Virus record (IMG/VR): IMGVR_UViG_3300046691_000144
Location: 1-63,703 of that record
Reading direction: 5' to 3' (one strand)
Length of the DNA stretch: 63,703 nucleotides
DNA from: a virus
This document shows positions 2,342-57,901 of this stretch, in pieces. The translations under genes and the position numbers were made by a program. The first letter of the stretch is position 1. Every line of letters begins with the position of its first letter. Below the pieces are notes generated by a model. The model saw only the letters and a program-made list of their open reading frames with translations. It had not been told where the DNA came from and ran no database searches.

Positions 2342-2652
2342 GCAGACACTACGACAATGATAACCAAGAACAGTCGTCAGCACTGAGTGCTCTGCCTCTA
2401 TTCGCGACAGACCAACAGCTTGCCGTCGCAATCGTCGGCAAGCCGAGAGCGTCAATGTGGGTGAAAACCGTAATTCCGCAGCTTGAGCGGAAGGGCTTCC
2501 CGCGCATTGATCCGCTCCACGACGGTCGACCCGTTCCGCTGGTCAGGAAATTCTATGACGGGTATTTTGGCATAACGGCTGGATTTGCGGCCACCGCGCC
2601 TGATGGCGGAGAGGACCTAAGCGTATGGAAGAGATCGAAGCGCAAGGCTTGA
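2338..2652 (+). CDS. excisionase-like small DNA-binding protein, 104 aa
   Basis: This 104-residue basic protein lies immediately upstream of the integrase and overlaps it by 28 bases. The core (FATDQQLAVAIVGKPRASMW... PQLERKGFPRID... GRPVPLVRKFYD) looks like a winged-helix of the excisionase/AlpA kind: a helix-turn-helix followed by a basic wing. Its N terminus contains YDNDN, a variant of the NDN peptide found in many proteins here. The likely role is directing excisive recombination together with the integrase. The family call rests on pattern and context only. Confidence 0.6.
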   Translation: MSRHYDNDNQEQSSALSALPLFATDQQLAVAIVGKPRASMWVKTVIPQLERKGFPRIDPLHDGRPVPLVRKFYDGYFGITAGFAATAPDGGEDLSVWKRSKRKA

Positions 2653-3818
2653 AGTGGATTCAGCGCAGGGCCAGTCGTACGCCGATATGGGTGGCTTCCG
2701 CAAAGGACTATATACCGCGGACGGTCAATCTATCGCATCTTCGCGATGAGCCGGAACAGCTGGCCGCGAAGTGCTCGCTACTGCAGGCTGAAATGAATGC
2801 GTGGAAAGCTGGCTTGCGCGATGGAGGCGTCGAGTTTAATGGCACGCTTGGTTCGCTGTTGAAGAAATATCAATCCGAGCCCGATAGCCCTTACTTCGGC
2901 TTACGTCCGCACTCTCGTAAGCCCTACGATCACTACCTCCCTAAACTCATAGCGGGCCACGGCGACCGGCATCTTGACAAGATTACCGGTGTCGACCTAA
3001 AGCGGTGGCACGAAGCATGGTCAGACGGGGGCAAGCACCTAGCCGCGTCTAAGTTAATGCGCGCCGTTATAGATGCCGCTGTGTCCTACGGTATCATGTG
3101 CCGTCTTGAGGCTTGCATTGAGTTGAAGGAAGTTCTGAAAGCTGCGAGTCGGAAACTCCCAAACCCACGCCGTCGCGAAATCGTAATTACGGCAGATCAG
3201 GTCATTGCCTTGCGTGCGGCTGCGCACGCCGCTGGACGTCCGTCTAGCGCAATGGCTTACGCCCTCGTATACGAAACAACGTTGCGCCTTTGGGATGTTA
3301 TTGGCCAGTGGGTTCCTGTTGACTCGCCAGGTATAAGCGACGTGGTGAACCAGCGAACAGGCAACAAGTGGTTCGGCCTACGGTGGGAGGACATCGACGA
3401 GTACATGGTGCTTCGTTACGTCCCGTCGAAGACGTCAATGAAGACCGGGCTTGCCGTAGCTTATCCGCTTAGTAAGGCGCAGATGGTTGTCGAGGAGCTG
3501 GAGCACTGGCCAGCAGAGATGCGGGTCGGTCCCGTTATCCGTTACGAGAAGAACGGCCGGCCGTACCTTTCTGAGGTCTTCTCCAGCATGTGGTCGGCGG
3601 ATCGCAAGGCTGCCAACTTGCCAAAGGAGATTTGGGCTAGAGATCTTCGCGCCAGCGGAATTACAGAAGCCCGCGCCGGTGGCATCAGCACCGACGACGC
3701 ATCAAAGGTTGCTGGCCACGCCTCAACCAAGACGACGTCAGCCGTCTACGACAGGGCGGCGCTCGAGGCCGCGGAGCGGTTCGCAACGGCGCGAACAAAG
3801 AGGAGGAACGGTGAATGA
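2625..3818 (+). CDS. int: tyrosine-type site-specific integrase, 397 aa
   Basis: The product is a tyrosine recombinase with an N-terminal arm/core-binding region (residues 1-170) and a C-terminal catalytic domain. Visible catalytic elements are an Arg in ETTLRLWD near residue 220, ARDLRASGITEA near 341 (the usual His of the HxxR box is Ala here), GHAS near 365, and the nucleophile in SAVYDRAAL near 375. It would integrate and excise the phage chromosome at attP. It overlaps the excisionase-like gene upstream and couples by ATGA to the GIY-YIG gene downstream, with the candidate attP a little further on. Confidence 0.93.
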   Translation: MEEIEAQGLKWIQRRASRTPIWVASAKDYIPRTVNLSHLRDEPEQLAAKCSLLQAEMNAWKAGLRDGGVEFNGTLGSLLKKYQSEPDSPYFGLRPHSRKPYDHYLPKLIAGHGDRHLDKITGVDLKRWHEAWSDGGKHLAASKLMRAVIDAAVSYGIMCRLEACIELKEVLKAASRKLPNPRRREIVITADQVIALRAAAHAAGRPSSAMAYALVYETTLRLWDVIGQWVPVDSPGISDVVNQRTGNKWFGLRWEDIDEYMVLRYVPSKTSMKTGLAVAYPLSKAQMVVEELEHWPAEMRVGPVIRYEKNGRPYLSEVFSSMWSADRKAANLPKEIWARDLRASGITEARAGGISTDDASKVAGHASTKTTSAVYDRAALEAAERFATARTKRRNGE

Positions 3819-16131: not shown

Positions 16132-17946
16132 CTATTCCAGACCTGGCGTTCTAGCTTCCCACGAAAACGAAAGCGCCGAGGTGGCGACGACTTGCGATGT
16201 GCGAATGATGAATTGCGTCGAGGTGATATCCGCCGCAGCCGCCCACCAACCGGTAACGCCGGAAACGCCCGGAGACGTTATGGGCTTGATGTTGATATCC
16301 TGAATGTTTGGCGTGACCGGCAGCCCGTGGGTAATGGCAATAGCTGCATTACCAACAGTTACGGAAGCGGTCCCACTGGTTCTGCTCTGATATCCAAGGT
16401 TGTTCTTGATGACCTTGGAAGTGAGCGTCATGCCATCGATCATCGCGCCTGTAACATTGCCAGTCAGGTTATTTTCGGCAATGCAAATATTAGCGGTAGT
16501 ACCAGAGGCGAGCAGATTGATGCCATAGCGCTGATTGTTCGTGCCACCGACTGCATAATCCAAGCCGCCAGAGCCGATGAAGTTACCATCCAAAGTAACG
16601 TCAGTGACGCCAGAGCCGATGTTCACGCCATCGTAAGCGGCGCTCGTGACTCGGCTATTATTGAAAATTTGAGCTTTCGAGAAAGTGACCTTTCCAGCCG
16701 CCGCAAGGGCAACGCCATGTTGGACGTTGTTGCGGATGATGCCGCCTTTCCACGACATGCCATAGACCGCAGCAGAAATAAGAACCCCAGATCCTGCATT
16801 CGCTGCAGACCAGCAATCGGTACAGCTGATATTTGCGATGATGCCTGACGAGTTGAAATGCCATCCAGCGGCACCACCGGAATCGGCGAGCACGTTATTG
16901 AAAAGGCCAAAGATAACCCTCTGACCGACCGCAGGGGCGAAAAGAATGCCTTGATTCGTGCTGCCAACTGCATCCACGTCGTGGATATATAGCCCGGATA
17001 CACTCGCGAATTTCATACCAATATTACAATTGGAAAGAATGCCATGCGACAGGAAAACATCGTTCGGCATGCCTGTACCACCACCGCAAAGAATGCCAAC
17101 GTTGGTGCAATCGCGGATATAGAAATTTGAAAGCTGCTGGTCGATGCTTTGGTTTGTATTATTGGCCTCAAAGGCGATGCCGTTGTAGCCACCATAAACG
17201 TAGATGTCATCGAGAACGATAATATTCGCGATCTCGATCAAGCGGATTGCAGCGCCAGAGGTTTGCGTGACGGTCGGCTTGATCGTCATCCCGCGAATGG
17301 CAACGCTATCAATGCCGGCGACAGAGCCGATAGTAAAGCAATCACCAGACGCAAAAGCCGGTGCAATCGTAGTTACATTTTTACCGGCGCCTTGGATGGT
17401 ATAGCCAGTAGCCGCAATCACAATTGGAGAAGTAGTCTTGTACGTGCCGGCGGGGAAATAGATGTGCTTCGCCATTACAATGGCGGCATTGATTGCCGCC
17501 GTGTCATTGGCTGACCCATCGCCAACAGCACCAAACCACTTGACGCTCACTTGACCAACGAACACGCGCACCCAGCAGCCGGCAGTAGCGGCTATCGCCG
17601 TATCCTTGACATAGATGCCCTGCTGCGTGTCTGCGGTAACTTGGGCTGAATAATTACCAGTCAGCCAAAGAAATGTGCCTTCACGGCCACTTTCCTTAAG
17701 GTAGGCCGCCATAATTTTCGTCGTATCGATGGCAGCGAGAGCGGTGCGGGACGCGACAATAGCGACAACGGATGTTGCTTTCAGAAATTGGAGGCCACCA
17801 GCGGTCGATCCATCGTGGAGCGAAACAATTCCGCGCTGATGGTCGACGGTCACTTCACGAGTAGGGCCGATATAAGCGTCAAACGCTGCGGTATTAGCAA
17901 GGTCAGCGGCTCCAATGCCGGCAAGTCTACGGGGTACACGCGTCAT
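16132..17946 (-). CDS. tailspike with pectate-lyase-type beta-helix, 604 aa
   Basis: An N-terminal attachment part (residues 1-130) is followed by VKWFGAVGDGSANDTAAINAAI, the usual entry into a right-handed beta-helix of the pectate-lyase superfamily. Parallel-strand repeats run to about residue 500. The C-terminal domain (AAIAITHGLPVTPNIQDINI ... TSQFIIRTS) is a trimerisation/beta-sandwich type common in tailspikes. It probably binds and cuts a surface polysaccharide of the host. It is coupled to the upstream tail gene by a one-base overlap and converges with the methyltransferase gene. Confidence 0.87.
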   Translation of the reverse strand: MTRVPRRLAGIGAADLANTAAFDAYIGPTREVTVDHQRGIVSLHDGSTAGGLQFLKATSVVAIVASRTALAAIDTTKIMAAYLKESGREGTFLWLTGNYSAQVTADTQQGIYVKDTAIAATAGCWVRVFVGQVSVKWFGAVGDGSANDTAAINAAIVMAKHIYFPAGTYKTTSPIVIAATGYTIQGAGKNVTTIAPAFASGDCFTIGSVAGIDSVAIRGMTIKPTVTQTSGAAIRLIEIANIIVLDDIYVYGGYNGIAFEANNTNQSIDQQLSNFYIRDCTNVGILCGGGTGMPNDVFLSHGILSNCNIGMKFASVSGLYIHDVDAVGSTNQGILFAPAVGQRVIFGLFNNVLADSGGAAGWHFNSSGIIANISCTDCWSAANAGSGVLISAAVYGMSWKGGIIRNNVQHGVALAAAGKVTFSKAQIFNNSRVTSAAYDGVNIGSGVTDVTLDGNFIGSGGLDYAVGGTNNQRYGINLLASGTTANICIAENNLTGNVTGAMIDGMTLTSKVIKNNLGYQSRTSGTASVTVGNAAIAITHGLPVTPNIQDINIKPITSPGVSGVTGWWAAAADITSTQFIIRTSQVVATSALSFSWEARTPGLE

Positions 17947-41800: not shown

Positions 41801-42325
41801 CTACCCACAAACCGCGCTGGCGGGCAACGTCGTGGCGTTGTCGTTGTCGTTGGCAGCTTCCAGAAGCCAGCCACGCACCAGCGCCACGGCCTTGGTGGCC
41901 GCTTCTTCTGTGGTGGAGAACCGTACGACCTCGATTTCAAAGCCTAGCCGAGCCAGGGCTGCATGGCGGGCAACCTGCGCTGGCGACAGCCGACCGTTGC
42001 CAACCTTGTTCTCGATCATCCGTAGTCGGCCACCATGGAGATAAATCCGCACGTCTGCCTCACCTGGCGTCATGCCCGCCGCTATCGCCTCGATCTGGGC
42101 GCGTGGACCGCGCTTGGCGCTGTTCTGGTCTCCGGCCAGCAGGAACAGCTTGCCGTACTCTGGCATGGTTCGCAGGGCGCGCACTTGGGCGGCTTGTCCT
42201 TCCCATTCCTTCGGGGAGGCTTCGGTGACCTTGACCTTCGTGCCAGCAGCCAATGTCGTTGTGACGATGCGTACTCGCTTGCCGTTCAACTTTGTCGTCT
42301 GTGTGGTTTGCTTGCTGCGGGCCAT
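41801..42325 (-). CDS. VRR-NUC domain nuclease, 174 aa
   Basis: EADVRIYLHGG-R-LRMIENKVGNGRLSPAQVARHAALARLGFEIEVV carries the D ... E-x-K core and the LSPxQ helix of the VRR-NUC branch of PD-(D/E)XK nucleases, here with an N-terminal basic extension. These enzymes process branched DNA. ATG at 42325 follows CCACCACAGGAGACACC. It lies next to the octamer array and the primase-helicase gene. The C terminus has AANDNDN. Confidence 0.8.
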   Translation of the reverse strand: MARSKQTTQTTKLNGKRVRIVTTTLAAGTKVKVTEASPKEWEGQAAQVRALRTMPEYGKLFLLAGDQNSAKRGPRAQIEAIAAGMTPGEADVRIYLHGGRLRMIENKVGNGRLSPAQVARHAALARLGFEIEVVRFSTTEEAATKAVALVRGWLLEAANDNDNATTLPASAVCG

Positions 42326-42378: not shown

Positions 42379-42721
42379 CGGGACAAAGCACCGGGACAAC
42401 ACCCACCCCTAAAGGGGTGTGGGGTTTTTGTCCCGCTGGATGCTCGTGGGACAAAGTAAAAAAAATCTTGTCCCGCTCTTGTCCCGCAACACTGTTTTCA
42501 TTGAGTTATTTTTGTCCCGCACTTTGTCCCGCTTGTCCCGTTGCCTATTTTTTGAGCGGGACAAAGTGCGGGACAAGACGATATTTTTTGTCCCGTTTGT
42601 CCCGCTGGGTTGTAGCACTTTCTAGTTGTGTGTTTTTGTCCCGCTAATTTTGTCCCGTTTGTCCCGTTTGGCACTTAAGACATTGATTTATAACCGGGAC
42701 AAAAGCGGGACAACGGGACAA
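42379..42721. repeat. array of 18 TTGTCCCG octamers, candidate replication origin (iterons)
   Basis: Eighteen perfect copies of TTGTCCCG or its complement plus one variant lie in 343 bp. Direct copies start at 42428, 42468, 42479, 42512, 42524, 42533, 42588, 42597, 42636, 42650 and 42659. Inverted copies start at 42379, 42392, 42557, 42569, 42695, 42706 and 42714. Neighbours are mostly 8-14 bp apart. A G/C hairpin (CACCCC-TAAA-GGGGTG) lies at 42406-42421. The tracts between copies are A/T-rich. No coding frame explains it. It lies between the primase-helicase and VRR-NUC genes. Confidence 0.85.
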
Positions 42722-42764
42722 AACGCAAATAAGGCAAATTACCGCCTTATTTTATCAGGTTGTA

Positions 42765-44894
42765 CTAGGAGGGCCAAAACCAGAGGCCAATATTGTTCAC
42801 ATGGCCATCCTCGACGAGTGATTTTGGCGCGCGCTGGAACTGCTTGCGTGCCGTCTCCGCAGCACCTATCGTCGATGTGTCTCGCGTGGCGTAGAACTCT
42901 GTTCGCCATGTATGCTCATCAACAACCACGATGTCATCCGGGAATGCGTCGCCTTCAGGCTCTATGCCATTCTTCTTGATAGCCTCATGCAGCGCGGCGA
43001 GCACGTCTCCCTTGAAGCCCTTCAGCGTGCCGCTGGTGGGTGGCTTCTCCGCCTCCGATGCGACCACTACCGGAGCTGTCGTGGGCACGCCATCCTCGTC
43101 AACACCTATCTGTACGGACTTCATGGTAAAGGCTAGCACGTCGCCCTCCTCGCCGTCGTTTGTGCCATCGCATACCAGTCTGTGCTTGTTGCCTTCCTTC
43201 TTGACCATGAAGCTGGCGTCGACCGCGCCGTCCAGATCGATAGCGCCCTTGCCTCTCTCCCCCGACCATGCGCTGTGATGGATGGCTGTTACGTGCGCCT
43301 TTGTCTCCGTGAGGATGTGGTCGCACGACTGCACAAACCTGCTCATGTCCTTGCTGGCATTCTGGTCACCGGCCCCGAAGACGCGCGTCAGGGTGTCTAT
43401 AATAACCCAGACGCACTTCATGCCTGCGATGGTCTCGGCTTGCCGGATGGCGGCAATCAGATCGTTGGCATCCTTAAGATCGCGGGTGAAATCCAGGCGA
43501 CCGCCGACAACAAGCAGCGGCACGTTGTGCACGTCATGATGCTTGCGGAATGCCATCATGCGGCGCTCCGTAAGCTTCTTGCGCTCGGCAGCCACATAGA
43601 TGACGAGTCCCGGTTTAACCTTGATGCCGTGCCAGTCCATGCCTGCCGCGATATGGCAAGCAAGGTCGGTCGTTACGACGCTCTTGCCTGTGCCTGGCAG
43701 GCCAGAGATCGTCGTGAATTCACCCTCGCCCAACCAACCCTTGAGGATAGTCTCTTTCGGTTTACCCTCTTCGATCTCGTCGAACCATGTCTGTTCGAAG
43801 CGTTCGCGCTTTTTTGGAGGTTGGTCGGTGGTGGTTGTCTCTGGCTGTTGTTCGGCTGGCGCGTCCTTGGCTGCCTGCTTAGCCTTGGCGCGCTGGACCA
43901 TACCAATCAATGCATCGGGATCAGATCCGTTGTCGTTGTCTGCGGTGTATGACGGCGCCGGCACATCGCGCGGCTGCGACATGCCGTCTTTTATGCCTCT
44001 GGATATGGTGCCCTTTGACTTTTGGAAGTTCGGCCACTGTTGGGTTATCGCCTCAAGGCTTGATCGAGCATCAGACTCAGATATGTGGCCGCCACCGACA
44101 AGACGACCGATCTTGAATGATGCGTCATTGAGTGCTGCGTTGCGTCCGCCCTGCGGTGTGCTAGCCAAGTTCTGAAGCTCAGAGTTTACCGCTCTGTCGA
44201 CATAGACTGGATTGCTGCCAGTCGCCTGGCTGGCGCCAGTGTATGTCGTGGTGGATGCTGGTTGGTGCTTGGTGATAAACATGTCGACCAACCAGGCCGG
44301 AGCATCGGCGAACTCTGGCAGACGATCGCCGTCATGGTCAATCCATGCGTATCGTCTGCCATCAGCCATGACGCTGCCTGGTCCGATAATGTAGCCACCT
44401 TCGGCCCTGCAATCCACGCCTGGAGCAATTGCTGCTCTGTTTCTGATTCCTTCTATGTGTTTGAACATGATGTGCGTGCCACCGTTGGCCGTGCTGGCGC
44501 GCGCCGTGTCGGGTAGTTGACCGTGAATAGCCTCTTGAGCGGCAAGCCACTCGTGGCCGTCTCGAAGCGTGCCGTCTTCATTAATGTGTCTATCAAGGTC
44601 CAATACCCACGCTCCCAAGGATGAGCCTGTAGGCAGGCCAATCAATGCGTTGGGGTGGCGCTCGTTAAACCATATATCGATGATCCGGCCTGAGCGTGTG
44701 GCATCCTTTAGGCCAAAACTGGTGTATGGTGCCTTTTCGGCGAAATCAATTATCTCGCCAGTGGCATGGTCGACACCTTCGCTGGCCATTTCTCGGCAGG
44801 GAAAAACAGCGACCCCAGCAGCAATGAAGGCGCGGGCGACATCGAGTGGTGCTTTGGTGCCGCCAGCTACAGGTGGTTTGAATGGTTGTACCAT
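42765..44894 (-). CDS. primase-polymerase/helicase fusion, 709 aa
   Basis: The N-terminal Prim-Pol domain shows LGAWVLDLDRH (metal-binding D-x-D), NGGTHIMFK and RAEGGYIIGPGSV. The C-terminal RepA/RecA-like helicase has Walker A ISGLPGTGKSVVT near residue 400 and Walker B CVWVIIDTLTRV near 495, then AIHHSAWSGERGKGAIDLDGAVD. Such fusions start phage DNA replication. The adjoining octamer array supports an origin here. TADNDNGSD lies in the linker. Confidence 0.9.
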   Translation of the reverse strand: MVQPFKPPVAGGTKAPLDVARAFIAAGVAVFPCREMASEGVDHATGEIIDFAEKAPYTSFGLKDATRSGRIIDIWFNERHPNALIGLPTGSSLGAWVLDLDRHINEDGTLRDGHEWLAAQEAIHGQLPDTARASTANGGTHIMFKHIEGIRNRAAIAPGVDCRAEGGYIIGPGSVMADGRRYAWIDHDGDRLPEFADAPAWLVDMFITKHQPASTTTYTGASQATGSNPVYVDRAVNSELQNLASTPQGGRNAALNDASFKIGRLVGGGHISESDARSSLEAITQQWPNFQKSKGTISRGIKDGMSQPRDVPAPSYTADNDNGSDPDALIGMVQRAKAKQAAKDAPAEQQPETTTTDQPPKKRERFEQTWFDEIEEGKPKETILKGWLGEGEFTTISGLPGTGKSVVTTDLACHIAAGMDWHGIKVKPGLVIYVAAERKKLTERRMMAFRKHHDVHNVPLLVVGGRLDFTRDLKDANDLIAAIRQAETIAGMKCVWVIIDTLTRVFGAGDQNASKDMSRFVQSCDHILTETKAHVTAIHHSAWSGERGKGAIDLDGAVDASFMVKKEGNKHRLVCDGTNDGEEGDVLAFTMKSVQIGVDEDGVPTTAPVVVASEAEKPPTSGTLKGFKGDVLAALHEAIKKNGIEPEGDAFPDDIVVVDEHTWRTEFYATRDTSTIGAAETARKQFQRAPKSLVEDGHVNNIGLWFWPS

Positions 44895-44972: not shown

Positions 44973-45194
44973 ATGACCACCCCCGCAATTGTTGCCGCAA
45001 TGCTTGCCCGTCCCTTGACCCACAAGGTTGTGACGACATGGTCCGACGGTTCGATGAACGAACTTGATGTCCGCTCCATTGCTCAAGCTGAAAACCACAA
45101 AATCACGATGTCCCGCATGGCGGGTCGTGATCTGATTAGCCGCAAAACTGGCGAAATGGTTCGCGTTACGTCCATTGAGATAGTTGCGTTGTGA
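44973..45194 (+). CDS. small hypothetical protein, 73 aa
   Basis: ATG at 44973 follows CAAGGAGACCACCACA. A small alpha/beta protein (LTHKVVTTWSDGSMNELDVRS ... NHKITMSRMAGRDLISRKTGE). It is coupled to the HTH gene by GTGA overlap. It may be an early regulator or a partner of the HTH protein. Confidence 0.72.
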   Translation: MTTPAIVAAMLARPLTHKVVTTWSDGSMNELDVRSIAQAENHKITMSRMAGRDLISRKTGEMVRVTSIEIVAL

Positions 45195-45388
45195 CGCCTT
45201 CCGAACTTGAAATCCGATGTTCCGCCTTATTTGGCGCGAATTGGCAAACTGAACTCGCGCGCCAATGTGGAGTTGACGCGCGAACGGTTCGTCGGTGGAA
45301 GGCTGGCGCGACTGATGTGCCGCCTTGGGTGAACGCGCTGCTTCACGCATGGGAGAAGTTGCGTGCGATGGGCGTGGATTGGGCTTGA
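45191..45388 (+). CDS. small helix-turn-helix protein, 65 aa, GTG start
   Basis: NWQTELARQCGVDARTVRRWKAGATDVPPWV is a clear HTH. The size fits a Cro-like or Rep-regulating protein. The 3' end overlaps the convergent cytosine methyltransferase gene by 46 bases. It may bind the palindrome in its own promoter, which is inference. Confidence 0.78.
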   Translation: MTPSELEIRCSALFGANWQTELARQCGVDARTVRRWKAGATDVPPWVNALLHAWEKLRAMGVDWA

Positions 45389-46620
45389 TGGTTGTCGTTA
45401 GCTACCGACGCCAATGCCCGCTCGACCCTCATGATTGCTCGCCCGATGGCTTCTGGGATTTGCGGGAGGACGGCGTCGCCGAACGCTTCGACGATGAGGC
45501 TAGCTGCAACTGTCCCGCGAGGACCGCCGACTGCAATGCGCGACTGAGCCACCCAACCGGATAGCCCATCATCCACCCGTAGGTGATGGGCAAGGCCGCC
45601 GTTCCAGTCAGACCATGGCTCTGCAGGAGATTGGCCAGCGCTCTCGCTCCCGCCCATTTGTCCGAAGCTCTCCCCGTCATCGCTCCATCCATCACCGCAT
45701 CCATCGTCGGGCTCTTGCGTCGATCGTATGCGGGGCTCCATCCGTCCATCCGCTTGTCCCGCTTCGTTGGAGTTGGCAGGGTTTCCAAAGCGTAGCGAAG
45801 CAGGTTCGGCGTATCGATCTGCGCCTTCTGGCCGTTTGCCCTCTTGCCAGTCTCTATCGCCTCCTTCGACAGCGTCCGTCCGCCGTTCGGCTTCACCGGG
45901 GTTGGCATCATCCACGCATGTTTCGACGGATAGCCCCTCAGTTGAGACAGAACATCCCTGCGCCCGCCCCTGTCCGCATCCGTCTTCCGTGGCGTGGCCA
46001 GCATCGCCCTCCATGGATCGCACGATTCCCACTTCTGCATGCTTGGCGCTGCGAAATTTGCCTGCGTCGTCGGTGTGTGAAAGATTGAACCCGATGAGCC
46101 AGGACCGCTTACGCTCGTGGTTGGCGCCGATGTCTCCAGCACTAACCACGAATGGCCAGCAGGTGTAGCCGATTGCCGCCAATGCATCGATGACCCGGTC
46201 TGCGCCTCGAGTTCGGAGATTAGCGCTATTCTCAAGAGCGAACCAACGAGGGCGGCATTCGTCGATAAGTCGGATGGCCTCGAAGTAGAGACCGCTTCGC
46301 TCTCCGTCGACGCCTTTGCCTTTTGTGTTGGCGCTGCTGATATCCTGGCACGGCGGGCTTCCGACGACGATATCTGGAAGTCCAATACCGTCCCGAATAA
46401 GTCTGTCTGCGGTAAGAGTTGTGACGTCGTCATAAACTGGCACTCCCGGATTATTTTCTGAATAAAGGGCGCGGCGCCAATCGATGACTTCGCATGCGGC
46501 TATCGTGCGATAGCCGGCGCGATGCATCCCAAGGGACCACCCACCGGCCGCTGCGCTGAATAGGTCGAGGACGCGGACGCGCTGGTCTTCTGGAAAGATG
46601 TGATTGATGATATCCATCAA
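45343..46620 (-). CDS. DNA cytosine-5 methyltransferase, 425 aa
   Basis: Motif I VLDLFSAAAGGWSLG, motif IV VGSPPCQDIS with catalytic Cys, motif VI ALENSAN, and NHERKRSWLIGF (motif VIII) are present. The C-terminal FGDAVLPQIPEAIGRAI matches the family's GNAVVPQ motif X region. The long linker rich in Asp, Gly and Glu is typical of phage enzymes of the VADA-repeat class. It probably protects phage DNA from restriction. A second frame is open over 1005 bases on the same strand. Confidence 0.93.
   Translation of the reverse strand: MMDIINHIFPEDQRVRVLDLFSAAAGGWSLGMHRAGYRTIAACEVIDWRRALYSENNPGVPVYDDVTTLTADRLIRDGIGLPDIVVGSPPCQDISSANTKGKGVDGERSGLYFEAIRLIDECRPRWFALENSANLRTRGADRVIDALAAIGYTCWPFVVSAGDIGANHERKRSWLIGFNLSHTDDAGKFRSAKHAEVGIVRSMEGDAGHATEDGCGQGRAQGCSVSTEGLSVETCVDDANPGEAERRTDAVEGGDRDWQEGKRPEGADRYAEPASLRFGNPANSNEAGQADGRMEPRIRSTQEPDDGCGDGWSDDGESFGQMGGSESAGQSPAEPWSDWNGGLAHHLRVDDGLSGWVAQSRIAVGGPRGTVAASLIVEAFGDAVLPQIPEAIGRAIMRVERALASVANDNHQAQSTPIARNFSHA
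45429..46433 (-). CDS. overprinted second reading frame inside the cytosine methyltransferase gene, 334 aa
   Basis: A same-strand frame open for 334 codons within the methyltransferase gene. It starts ATG nine bases after GGAG and contains recurring T-P-T motifs (FHTPTTQ, LATPRKTDAD, MMPTPVKPNGG, TLPTPTKRDKR) and MMGYPVGW near the C terminus. These features are those of a phage protein family often found beside such methyltransferases. Whether it is translated here is uncertain. Confidence 0.4.
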   Translation of the reverse strand: MTTSQLLPQTDLFGTVLDFQISSSEARRARISAAPTQKAKASTESEAVSTSRPSDLSTNAALVGSLLRIALISELEAQTGSSMHWRQSATPAGHSWLVLETSAPTTSVSGPGSSGSIFHTPTTQANFAAPSMQKWESCDPWRAMLATPRKTDADRGGRRDVLSQLRGYPSKHAWMMPTPVKPNGGRTLSKEAIETGKRANGQKAQIDTPNLLRYALETLPTPTKRDKRMDGWSPAYDRRKSPTMDAVMDGAMTGRASDKWAGARALANLLQSHGLTGTAALPITYGWMMGYPVGWLSRALQSAVLAGQLQLASSSKRSATPSSRKSQKPSGEQS

Positions 46621-54218: not shown

Positions 54219-55145
54219 TCAGTGGGTGGCGCCGTCTATCCAAATTTCTCCCGACGCCAGCAAATAGCTTATGGTCTCCGCCTCTTCATCCACCTCCTGC
54301 AAAACACCTGGAACCATCGCTGGAATCGTGATGTGGGCGGGACACCCAATTTTTTGCTCATCGAAAGAAATCGGCTTCGACCACCTGGCACACGACCAGT
54401 GCCCGTCTCCGCCAATTTCAGGGGATGCATGGATGCAGGAACGGCACGTTGACCTAGGCCATTCGCCGTGGTGGCATACCTCTTTCTTGCGGCAGAACAT
54501 GCAGCCGAAAAAGTCTGGCTTCTCCGATATCCTCGATGGCGGTTCTGGCGAGTTGATGACGCGCTCAAGCCTTGCCAGCAAGCGCAGGCAGAACTCGACG
54601 TCATATTCGATGCGCTCGGCGTACAGATCGTCGCTATCTTTGCAGCTTACAAGGTAAAGGCATCTCGTCAGACCAAATGCATGCATGCCAAGCTGGCACT
54701 GCCCATAATGAAGTGGCTTGCTTTCCTTGCATCCCTTCTTCTGGATATCTGCGAAGTTCTTCTTGTTTGCGCTCTTAAATTCTAGGAGGTGCTCGGTTCT
54801 GGGCGCCTCTGGAATGCCCATCGCCTTGCCGTCGCACTTGCCGCGGACATGCGATCCGACAAGGCGGATTCTGTCTTGCTGGCCGTAGACATCAACGCCG
54901 ATTCGTTCGAGGTCGGCGACAAGACGGTCCTCTTCCAAGTTGCCAGTCTGAAAAAGACGCAACTGCTTGCCGGTATGCTTTTCGACAGGGAGAGCCCATC
55001 GAAAAGCATACCAAACGCTTCGGTCGCAAGCGTCGTTGGCTTCACCGACGCTGATGCCAAGGCTATCCCACGATTCCGCAGCGGCTTCGTAGGCGGCATA
55101 GATGGCGCTTACGGTTGATGGTTGGATGCGTGGGATGGGCGCCAT
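54219..55145 (-). CDS. Cas4/RecB-like PD-(D/E)XK exonuclease, 308 aa
   Basis: DRSVWYAFRWA (N-terminal part), KCDGKAMGI (Asp), LLEFKSANKKNF (E-x-K) and HYGQCQLGMHAFG (Q motif) form the nuclease core. C-terminal cysteines (CMFCRKKEVCHHGEW ... CRSCIH) could hold a metal or Fe-S cluster. It would resect DNA ends for the Sak4-like recombinase. It is directly downstream of the sliding clamp gene, overlapping by one base. Confidence 0.88.
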   Translation of the reverse strand: MAPIPRIQPSTVSAIYAAYEAAAESWDSLGISVGEANDACDRSVWYAFRWALPVEKHTGKQLRLFQTGNLEEDRLVADLERIGVDVYGQQDRIRLVGSHVRGKCDGKAMGIPEAPRTEHLLEFKSANKKNFADIQKKGCKESKPLHYGQCQLGMHAFGLTRCLYLVSCKDSDDLYAERIEYDVEFCLRLLARLERVINSPEPPSRISEKPDFFGCMFCRKKEVCHHGEWPRSTCRSCIHASPEIGGDGHWSCARWSKPISFDEQKIGCPAHITIPAMVPGVLQEVDEEAETISYLLASGEIWIDGATH

Positions 55146-56203
55146 TAGATGCGAACCGGCATCAATACGGCCAGCAACTCCGGCACCTTCTCAGAAGTAA
55201 ATACGGCAGGACTCCCAGAGTCGCCGAGCGCCAACTGAATGTTGCCAGCAGGGAAGATGCCAACCAGTTCCGTTAGGTAAGCGGCGTTGAACCCGATATC
55301 GACGGGCTGACCATCGTAGGCGACAACGATTTCGTCGGACGCGCTGCCTTGATCTGGGTTGTTGACCGTGAGCGCAGCAGTGCCTTCGGCAAAAGACAGC
55401 TTGACGGCACGGCCACGCTCGGAAGAGACGACAGATACACGACCGGCAGCCTGGCGCATGTCGTCGCTGCCGAAAACGATATTCTTGTCGTTGCCTGTGG
55501 GAATAACGCGCTGATAATCAGGGAACGTGCCGTCGATCAGTTTGGAGACCAGCACAAAGTCGCCGGACTCAATGCGGATCTTCTGGCTGGAAATCGAGAC
55601 GGCAACCGTGCCTTTCGGGAGTAGCGATACAATTTTGCGAGGAACAATGACGCCATCGAATTCCGGGACAGACGGCCCGACGTGCCGAGATAGACGATGG
55701 CCGTCCGTTGCTACGGCGCGCAAATTGCCATCTTGAACGTGCATGAAAATGCCGTTGAGATAATATCGCGTTTCCTCTGTCGAGATCGCAAACGCCACAG
55801 GCGCAAACAGCGCCGCAAGATCGATATCGAACGTGGCGTCAAACTTGCCGCCATCAAGCGACGGGAAGTCATCGGCCGGTAAAGTTGGCAGCGTGAACTG
55901 GCTACGGCCAGACTTCACCGTGAGGCGTCCTTTGTCCTCGGACAAGGAGATGTCGCCTGTGGATTTCTTTGCGATATCCGACAAGAGCTTGGCGTCGACA
56001 CAGACGGCTCCTGGCGCGCTAACGGTCGCGGCGGCTGCGTCGGTAGCAACGATATCGAGATCAGTGCCGGTGACCGTCAGGCGGCCGTCTGTGGCGGTAA
56101 GTTTGATGGCTGACAGGATCGGGATGGTCGTACGAGCCTCCACAACGCGTCCGACGTTTGTCAGGACGCGCGCTAGGTCGGATTTGGGGATTGTTAGCTT
56201 CAC
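55145..56203 (-). CDS. dnaN-like: DNA polymerase III beta (sliding clamp)-like protein, 352 aa, GTG start
   Basis: The GTG at 56203 follows AAGAGGAGACCACC. Three related clamp domains are seen: VKLTIPKSDLARVLTNVGRVVEARTTIPILSAI (domain 1), FAISTEETRYYLNGIFMHVQDGNLRAVATDGHRL (domain 2) and FNAAYLTELVGIFPAGNIQLALGDSGSPAVF with a C-terminal LAVLMPVRI (domain 3), all of the DnaN type. A phage without a visible DNA polymerase gene that carries its own clamp probably recruits the host Pol III. Confidence 0.93.
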   Translation of the reverse strand: MKLTIPKSDLARVLTNVGRVVEARTTIPILSAIKLTATDGRLTVTGTDLDIVATDAAAATVSAPGAVCVDAKLLSDIAKKSTGDISLSEDKGRLTVKSGRSQFTLPTLPADDFPSLDGGKFDATFDIDLAALFAPVAFAISTEETRYYLNGIFMHVQDGNLRAVATDGHRLSRHVGPSVPEFDGVIVPRKIVSLLPKGTVAVSISSQKIRIESGDFVLVSKLIDGTFPDYQRVIPTGNDKNIVFGSDDMRQAAGRVSVVSSERGRAVKLSFAEGTAALTVNNPDQGSASDEIVVAYDGQPVDIGFNAAYLTELVGIFPAGNIQLALGDSGSPAVFTSEKVPELLAVLMPVRI

Positions 56204-56258
56204 GGTGGTCTCCTCTTGTAGTGGTGAGGCGGGCCGCTGGTGAGGCCCGCCGTTGTTG

Positions 56259-56870
56259 TTACTTGGAGCCCCAAGGCTTACGACCACCGGCCGCTGCCGC
56301 AGCAGGTTTCGTAGCCGCCACCGCCGGCTTGTTGTCATTGGCTGGTACTGGCCGGTCCTCGTTGCGCTTCTTGCCCTGCGTACCGTCACCGATAACACCT
56401 AGTTCCGGAACCGGCTCCTTGGCCGCGTCGTCGGTATAGAAGAAGCGATCGATCTGGTTCTTGTCCTTGAAGAAACCACCAGCAGGGTTTGCGTTACCGA
56501 TTTGAATGCCTACTTCGGCCACGAACGACTTGAACAGCAGGTCGTCAGTGTCGGTATCTGCGGTGATTTCCACGCCGACGGAACGGCCAAATCTGTCGAA
56601 CATGGGCTTGCCGTACTTGTATGCGGGAAGCTGGTAGCCGTCGGGATGGACGATGGTCCAATAGGCCCAGAACTTGCGGCCCTTGAACTCTTCCGGCTCG
56701 ATCACTTCGAATGTGATTTCCGCCTGATAGCCCTTGTCGTCCTTGGTCTTCGGAAGGTTGATAGCTTCCGCCTGGAGGCGAGCATACATGTGCGGCAGGA
56801 TGCCGCCACTGCCGCCCTGCTTCTCTGTATTGTCGAACTCCGCTTCGTAGTCATTTCCGATTCTAGCCAA
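56259..56870 (-). CDS. DUF669-like ssDNA-binding protein, 203 aa, TTG start
   Basis: ITFEVIEPEEFKGRKFWAYWTIVHPDG ... PMFDRFGRSVGVEI is the OB-fold-like DUF669 pattern associated with Sak4-type recombinases. The C terminus (PVPANDNKPAVAATKPAAAAAGGRKPWGSK) is a disordered tail with a W. The start TTG at 56870 follows CACACGAAGGAGAATATT. Confidence 0.82.
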   Translation of the reverse strand: MARIGNDYEAEFDNTEKQGGSGGILPHMYARLQAEAINLPKTKDDKGYQAEITFEVIEPEEFKGRKFWAYWTIVHPDGYQLPAYKYGKPMFDRFGRSVGVEITADTDTDDLLFKSFVAEVGIQIGNANPAGGFFKDKNQIDRFFYTDDAAKEPVPELGVIGDGTQGKKRNEDRPVPANDNKPAVAATKPAAAAAGGRKPWGSK

Positions 56871-56897
56871 AATATTCTCCTTCGTGTGGTGGTTAGG

Positions 56898-57092
56898 TTA
56901 GTTTCTTGGTGCGGAAAGCTCTTTTGCCTTCAGCACTGCCAGTCGCTTGTCGGTGAACAAGAGCGGCTGGTTATCGTTTACGACATGCGCCCAAAGGCCT
57001 CGCTCTATTTTGGCCTCCAGGCCGTACTGGCCGTTAGTTGCTATGTAGACGCGGTGCTTACGGCCAGCTACGGGATTACAGAAGGCGATCAT
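56898..57092 (-). CDS. small hypothetical protein, 64 aa
   Basis: ATG overlaps the stop of the Sak4-like gene. AFCNPVAGRKHRVYIATNGQYGLEAKIERGLW and a VNDNQP motif are seen. A basic alpha/beta protein without a recognised family. Confidence 0.68.
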   Translation of the reverse strand: MIAFCNPVAGRKHRVYIATNGQYGLEAKIERGLWAHVVNDNQPLLFTDKRLAVLKAKELSAPRN

Positions 57093-57901
57093 GCCTCTTC
57101 CTCCTCTTCCTGCTCGACAACGGCCGTCACGACGTCAGGCTGCGGCGGGAAGTAAGTATTGAGTGCTGCGAACCCATGGCCCTGCTTGAGTTCAATGATT
57201 GGCTTCGGAAAATCGTATCGGGAGCCGGCGATAAATCCGGGACGCTCTTCAACGGCGATGTTGATTTCCCCGCTACCCTGACCGCGCTTTGCAGTCTTCT
57301 TGAAGCCTAGATCTTCCTTTTGGATCGATACGCGCTGGTGTAGGAAGCCGATGAGGTCGGATGCTGCGCAAATCGCTTCAGCCGCCGTCTCACGGACGTT
57401 CGGCATGTAACGCGGGTAGCTGTCCGTCGTCACACCCGGCACGGTCTTGGCCTTGACGTGTGAGATAAGCACGACATAGAAACCGGCCTTCTTGAGTGCC
57501 AGCATCTTCTTGATGAACTCTAGCCAGATGCTATGCGCAGCGGTATAGCCGTCCCCATATCCAGGCTGCGTGATATCAGCCCAGCCGTTACGGGCGCAGG
57601 CTTCGGCATTGATGAACACCTCGAGACCGTCTAGCGCGTCCACAACAAACGTGCGGCGGTCATGTTCAGCCTCAAGCATGAAGTTCGCCTGATCCATCAC
57701 GTCTTCGAACGACTCCGATACACCAAAAGACTTCATCGGCGCTCCAGCAGACTGACGTTCGCCCTCGCCTGTGCGGCAGTAGTACGGCGCAGGAAACTCA
57801 GATGCCAACGTGGTCTTGCCTAGCTTGGCGCCACCATAAATCGTGGTTATCGGCGGATCGGTATCGGACGTATCTTTCAGTTCGTCCCATGAAATTGCCA
57901 T
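57089..57901 (-). CDS. Sak4-like RecA-fold ATPase, 270 aa
   Basis: Walker A YGGAKLGKTTLA near residue 25 and Walker B VVDALDGLEVF near residue 95, with VVLISHVKAKTVPG and RYMPNVRETAAEAI, match the AAA_24/Sak4 phage recombinases. The acidic C terminus (QEEEEEA) is typical. It cooperates with the DUF669-like protein and the exonuclease in homologous recombination. Confidence 0.88.
   Translation of the reverse strand: MAISWDELKDTSDTDPPITTIYGGAKLGKTTLASEFPAPYYCRTGEGERQSAGAPMKSFGVSESFEDVMDQANFMLEAEHDRRTFVVDALDGLEVFINAEACARNGWADITQPGYGDGYTAAHSIWLEFIKKMLALKKAGFYVVLISHVKAKTVPGVTTDSYPRYMPNVRETAAEAICAASDLIGFLHQRVSIQKEDLGFKKTAKRGQGSGEINIAVEERPGFIAGSRYDFPKPIIELKQGHGFAALNTYFPPQPDVVTAVVEQEEEEEA

Follow-up and report, generated by a model that had tools for sequence, protein, structure and literature searches.

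A dense array of short repeats in a temperate phage genome is, at a probability of roughly 80% judged from sequence comparisons, the replication origin of that phage, read by the C-terminal domain (CTD) of the fused Prim-Pol/RepA-like helicase encoded next to it. The array was analysed in a virus record of 63,703 bases (IMG/VR IMGVR_UViG_3300046691_000144; the whole record is referred to as the window), which represents a temperate tailed phage of a soil bacterium with the Rhizobium phages 16-3 and RHph_X2_25 (X2_25) as its closest named relatives. An origin at this site had been put forward in an original prediction from the DNA letters, and the candidate is supported by the near-absence of the repeat elsewhere, its conserved position, re-spelling of the repeat together with the CTD, IHF-type sites, and a conserved hairpin. 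The genes and the array considered here are:

2625-3815, tyrosine integrase
41801..42325, minus strand, VRR-NUC-like nuclease gene beyond the array, a conserved flank that tracks the repeat only weakly
42379..42721 (343 bp), array of 18 exact TTGTCCCG and one TTGTCCCA in opposed doublets and triplets, putative iterons (predicted initiator sites)
42765..44894, minus strand, initiator gene with Prim-Pol primase (residues 20-200), RepA-like AAA_25 helicase (361-544), and CTD
45191-45388, plus strand (opposite to the initiator gene), small HTH protein about 2.5 kb from the array

Terminase, portal, and tape measure genes were also found in the window. In addition, the tail region encodes a pectate-lyase/epimerase-like protein (16135-17946, minus strand), likely a depolymerase tail protein, and a recombination/replication cluster at 54222-57901 (minus strand) comprises a Cas4-domain exonuclease, a processivity factor/RusA-like protein, and a Sak4-like annealing protein.

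Copies of one octamer cluster beside the putative initiator gene

A recount reproduced the predicted 18 perfect octamers and one variant within 343 bp in both orientations, with 11 exact copies on the plus and seven on the minus strand and the variant at 42447-42454 (minus strand). The octamer is, as anticipated, nearly absent elsewhere: a single further exact copy was found across the record, at 45754 (18 of 19 inside the 343 bp). The claim that such clustering exceeds chance likewise held, as 2.15 copies (sd 1.5) are expected in the whole record and the maximum in 100 shuffles was six. The proposed distance of 8-14 bp applies to start-to-start spacing within doublets and triplets, with 19-40 bp between these groups, and the tracts between repeats are indeed A/T-rich (61% A+T in the spacers vs 44% in the record), with no single DUE picked out. 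The mixed orientation, which had been called unusual, turned out to be normal among arrays of this helicase-CTD family.

The array starts 44 bp from the end of the Prim-Pol/AAA_25 gene and thus adjoins the putative initiator. Regarding the two neighbours named in the original prediction, the Prim-Pol/helicase is well matched in Pfam (PF09250, 3e-25; PF13481, 7e-37), while the nuclease matches VRR-NUC (PF08774) only weakly (E=0.031), but has an orthologue in 16-3 that carries this annotation. On the coding strand, the stop codon of the Prim-Pol/helicase is followed by a terminator-like hairpin, three forward repeats, and an IHF-consensus site, then by doublets and triplets in opposed orientation, which are separated by A/T-rich spacers and include a perfect inverted repeat with 22-bp arms, and finally by GAGCATCC, a repeat, a CACCCC-TTTA-GGGGTG hairpin, two reversed repeats, and the VRR-NUC-like gene. 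Elements in and beside the array are:

42404..42419, minus strand, hairpin CACCCC-TTTA-GGGGTG with a longer imperfect outer stem, between two inverted repeats at the gene-distal array end
42438..42445, minus strand, conserved block GAGCATCC, directly preceding repeat and hairpin; pairing is possible with GGTGCTT beyond the hairpin
42512..42576, long inverted repeat found by folding, with 22-bp perfect arms (42512-42533 and 42555-42576), two repeats per arm, and a 21-base loop
42676..42688, minus strand, IHF-consensus site AATCAATGTCTTA (WATCAANNNNTTR) from a consensus scan
42727..42752, minus strand, terminator-like hairpin directly past the initiator gene and outside the array

The GAGCATCC block could be aligned in 16-3, X2_25, and three further relatives (L010, L013, and L023). 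Rfam returned only sub-threshold microRNA models on the inverted repeats of the array, which were regarded as chance matches.

IHF-type sites and a covarying hairpin lie within the arrays

Perfect IHF-consensus sites occurred 15 times in 9.35 kb of arrays vs twice in 186 kb of neighbouring sequence, an enrichment of about 150-fold, and all 15 array sites are on the coding strand and thus in one orientation. In a preceding scan, whose stretches differed slightly, the counts were 13 vs one, where shuffles predict 0.28. Most of the sites belong to the closest group of relatives, with positions of about +25-76 or +155-266 relative to the stop codon, and they are rare in helicase-only and distant relatives; with one mismatch allowed, nearly all close arrays have one. 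The whole window holds just three IHF-consensus sites.

The hairpin, with a TTTA, TTAA, or TATA loop and a C-rich 5' arm, was found in nearly all close arrays and in several distant ones (~30% identity). Among 23 distinct hairpin sequences, which were selected for pairing next to the loop so that the percentage of pairs is biased in that direction, the six inner pairs are intact with the exception of one cell and show 46 double changes. Over the whole helix, 58 double changes were counted, and the covariation score was 0.63 compared to 0.21 after shuffling (reached in 0 of 500 shuffles). The best argument for the hairpin is that the compensatory pairs are so varied. Two other ideas on this element were rejected. 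A role as intrinsic terminator did not fit, since the coding strand lacks a T-run, and the T-run on the plus strand of the window is not found in 16-3, X2_25, or L010. Nor are the repeats flanking the hairpin constrained to pair with each other, since L010 and L014 (right repeat TGTCGGG) do not keep this pairing.

Relatives carry other words in the same slot

All full-length relatives, with loci drawn from IMG/VR and GTDB genomes, have an array in the same slot, and the word changes between them. TGTCACG occupies the slot in 16-3 and X2_25, with 15-16 copies and no TGTCCCG. The array of 16-3 is located at about 56.2-56.6 kb of NC_011103, next to the gene p101. Across the family, the 7-mers TGTCCCG, TGTCACG, TGTCTGG, TGTATGG, TGTCCGG, TGTACCG, TGTGACG, TGTTCCG, and TGTGCCG were observed, i.e., a pattern TGT-NNN-G in which the terminal TGT and G are fixed and the three middle bases vary, with 6-19 copies of its own word per genome. 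A scan of 66 helicase loci, some of them duplicate contigs, showed that one 7-mer is in excess near the 3' end of the gene, to a degree attained in 0 of 40 dinucleotide shuffles; the scan window missed or clipped the arrays of L030 and L033, which sit in the reading frame. The excess extends to relatives with ~30% identity, and several distant relatives lack it. Few more relatives came from a search of ~790 host genomes and none from one scan of viral sequences.

Two loci depart from the usual layout. In L023 (7106-7220), the array is strongly reduced and mixes TGTATGG and TGTCTGG, and is perhaps a word-switch intermediate or a decaying origin. The closely related phage AP-16-3 (L003) shares the nuclease flank at 74% DNA identity but encodes an unrelated initiator (Prim-Pol and DUF3987), and its gap (2363-2640) contains six AATTCCA, the only six within 8.4 kb. 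Between AP-16-3 and the window, the whole putative initiator-origin unit is exchanged.

The arrangement of helicase, CTD, array, and hairpin is kept in L031, but with a borderline Toprim primase match, and in L030, L033, and L057, which have no Prim-Pol domain in the same ORF; the array therefore goes with the helicase-CTD and not with the primase. In L030, L031, L033, and L034, the 3' part of the helicase ORF contains the repeats, which are thus translated (CDDVT repeats in L031). More distant AAA_25 helicases (L063-L095, ~30% identity) are followed by 3' arrays of CGAACACA, TGCGCACA, TTCGGGGT, CGTGCGAA, and TTACACTTT. The comparison suggests that an array 3' of the helicase may be a general arrangement for phage RepA-like helicases.

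These loci also bear on whether the repeats are operators through which a phage regulator, or the initiator itself, controls the downstream nuclease gene. In the close family, the VRR-NUC gene directly follows the array, and its divergence shows a weak correlation with the repeat (r 0.27). However, helicase-only relatives have a different next gene (HNH in L031) with array and hairpin still in place, arrays sit within the helicase reading frame in L030, L031, and L033, and the 18 sites come without a conserved promoter at the array, all of which makes operator function quite improbable.

The repeat word changes together with the CTD of the putative initiator

The predicted reader of the repeats was delimited as follows:

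42768..43055, minus strand, CTD of 96 residues, modelled as a winged helix; inferred repeat reader whose divergence tracks the repeat
42807..42869, minus strand, recognition helix (CTD residues 63-83) with R70, K71, and Q74, the positions covarying with the repeat

The AlphaFold model of the CTD (pLDDT 82.5) is a winged helix with the order H-E-H-H-E-E. The CTD matched no Pfam family, and its sequence matched nothing in the PDB. Foldseek placed CRP-type winged-helix regulators on top without significance (E 0.07 or worse), and the comparison therefore gives only the fold type. For the helicase, the sole PDB relative was RepA of RSF1010 (1g8y, E 0.004).

Upon word change, helicase cores remain 80-93% identical while CTDs drop to 20-60% (24 non-redundant pairs), with identity falling abruptly past the helicase. 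In Mantel tests on these pairs, motif distance correlated with CTD distance (r 0.52, 0 of 20,000 permutations) in contrast to core distance (r 0.12, 2879 of 20,000), and the correlation with the CTD was unchanged given the core (0.52, 0 of 20,000). At the 18 loci with the nuclease gene beyond the array, values were 0.65 for the CTD (0 of 10,000), 0.27 for VRR-NUC (239 of 10,000), and 0.04 for the core, so that the coupling is not accounted for by adjacency alone. Linkage of the neighbouring CTD and array could add part of it; the VRR-NUC gene beyond the array is weakly coupled as well.

At the level of single positions, CTD residue 70 was the top column for association with repeat base 6, residue 74 shared the top place for base 5 with one further column, and residue 71 was among those tied at the top for bases 4 and 5 jointly; some columns outside the recognition helix score too, as expected at ~12 effective sequences. 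Residue 71 is Lys or Arg in 9 of 9 TGTCC lineages compared to 0 of 14 others, which have Gln with TGTCA and otherwise Ala, Thr, Val, Ser, or Met. Contact between a basic residue and the GG that pairs with CC would be ordinary recognition chemistry. Position 71 was chosen on 24 sequences, and nine of the 23 lineages of the rule were outside that choice: all nine fit (five with TGTCC or GTCC, four without), with a chance of 1 in 126, or 1 in 70 with L128 and L129 counted once, where L034 had already been inspected by eye and the words of L059, L077, and L107 are based on few copies. A natural experiment on CTD and word is provided by L017, whose CTD is ~60% identical to those of 16-3 and X2_25, and whose word TGTCCCG differs by one base from TGTCACG: its residues 71/74 are K/Q, compared to Q/N in the TGTCACG phages.

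The original prediction had also named the small HTH protein at 45191 as a possible binder. Stoperator or immunity-repressor sites for this protein might be suspected, as its gene is 2.5 kb off and weakly matches a phage repressor family (phrog_2328, E 0.0008). Only 3 of 20 relatives encode this protein, irrespective of their repeat type, and in L013 it is 77% identical although the repeat there is TGTATGG. Moreover, stoperators are scattered sites, and the repeats of the window form one cluster, leaving this explanation very improbable. Covariation and the structural model rather indicate that the C-terminal winged helix of the initiator, and not the HTH protein, is the likely binder of the repeats.

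The same coupling speaks against a parS-like partition centromere. Clustered repeats of temperate phages can be centromeres; here, however, the repeat tracks the helicase CTD, no ParA or ParB was found beside the array among the neighbours examined, and an integrase is present, so plasmid partition is not needed. A centromere is accordingly a highly doubtful explanation of the array.

A harder case is a locus that binds the initiator CTD for copy control or incompatibility, like P4 crr or inc iterons, with synthesis starting elsewhere. Covariation of CTD and word fits this equally well, and 18-19 sites are many for a start site alone. In addition, the expected GC-skew switch at 42.5 kb was not seen, the skew minimum being near 54-55 kb; skew is a weak test here because the phage is a temperate mosaic with genes mostly on one strand. 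This result and the lack of DnaA boxes in all arrays scanned were counted as points against an origin, as were the concentration of IHF sites in the closest group and the strongly reduced array of L023. On the other hand, the window contains only this one cluster of the repeat, and TGTCACG likewise forms a single cluster in the genomes of 16-3 and X2_25; an origin elsewhere would therefore have no initiator sites, and the IHF sites and the covarying hairpin sit in the same array. We thus regard a pure copy-control locus as unlikely and favour the array as the candidate origin.

Proposed mechanism and possible re-keying of the candidate origin

At the candidate origin, the fused Prim-Pol/RepA-like helicase, encoded directly upstream on the same strand, would act as initiator, its C-terminal winged helix binding the 7-mer TGTCCCG. 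Many bound copies would share one DNA face within clusters, with IHF bending the DNA at the conserved site, and the bound and bent complex may then load and assemble the helicase ring at the A/T-rich spacers. In the weakest step of this model, the unwound strand would expose the TTTA-loop hairpin as a possible start mark for the primase, comparable to the ssi hairpins of RSF1010; a priming role is suggested by the logic of RSF1010 and pRN1.

Across the family, CTD and array change jointly, like a private lock and key, with primase, helicase, and flanking nuclease conserved. We tentatively propose, at slightly less than even odds, that the CTD, together with its array and the hairpin, is a specificity cassette that can be swapped, in which one replication engine is combined with a winged helix repeatedly re-keyed along with all of its 10-19 sites, following a natural recognition code of three helix positions and three bases. 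The pressure for re-keying would probably be incompatibility, or parasites or nucleases that target origins.

For temperate rhizobial phages of the 16-3 group, a full-text literature search turned up no study of the replication origin, and replication, primase, and origin all go unmentioned in the genome paper on AP-16-3. The array is a precise origin candidate, open to testing in 16-3, a classic laboratory phage. As each genome holds a putative reader together with copies of its word, the family provides a data set on specificity change in the recognition helix of winged helices, and on how an initiator and all its sites may change together with function kept. For annotation, our results suggest checking directly 3' of AAA_25 helicase genes for arrays of unknown words.

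Comparison with known systems

In its logic, the candidate origin appears to resemble those of P4 alpha and RSF1010, and on our analysis it is a member of neither. Like the window initiator, P4 alpha combines primase, helicase, and a C-terminal winged helix in one polypeptide, and its winged helix binds type I iterons (at ori and crr), which are many short repeats in both orientations (summarised in PMC4234260). However, the primase of P4 alpha is of the Toprim type and its helicase belongs to SF3, whereas the window initiator has Prim-Pol (PF09250) and AAA_25 (PF13481) domains, P4 alpha was not among the search matches of the window initiator, and arrays of the window type include IHF sites and the TTTA hairpin.

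RSF1010/IncQ replicons share a RepA-related helicase, an AEP-type primase, and iterons together with hairpins (PMC4234260, PMC4538821). RSF1010 uses three proteins (RepA, RepB', and RepC), of which RepC reads the iterons, whereas the window locus has one protein with its own winged helix. No RepC match was found among the neighbouring proteins searched, and the fused CTD would stand in for a separate RepC at this locus. RSF1010 has the two hairpins ssiA and ssiB, the window family one conserved, covarying TTTA hairpin. In ORF904 of pRN1 and in phage BIP-1, Prim-Pol, helicase, and winged helix are likewise joined in one protein, and the origin is directly 3' of the gene with a stem-loop kept in structure but not in sequence (PMC4234260). 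In contrast to the AAA_25 helicase and iterons of the window, pRN1 combines an SF3 helicase with a large stem-loop and lacks iterons.

That an origin-binding domain and its iterons can change in a coupled manner is already known and was experimentally shown for RepA_N of Vibrio cholerae PLE, in which the DNA-binding domain and iterons change together with the rest conserved, replication requires a cognate pair, and swapping of modules aids escape from an origin-directed nuclease (PMC8263062). The PLE initiator differs in having neither primase nor helicase and in its three ~30-bp semi-palindromic iterons, and PLE has two replicon types compared to nine or more words in the window family. What appears to be new here is the family itself, the putative fused Prim-Pol/RepA-helicase/winged-helix reader with a 3' array, the number of words, and the covariation at the level of residues.
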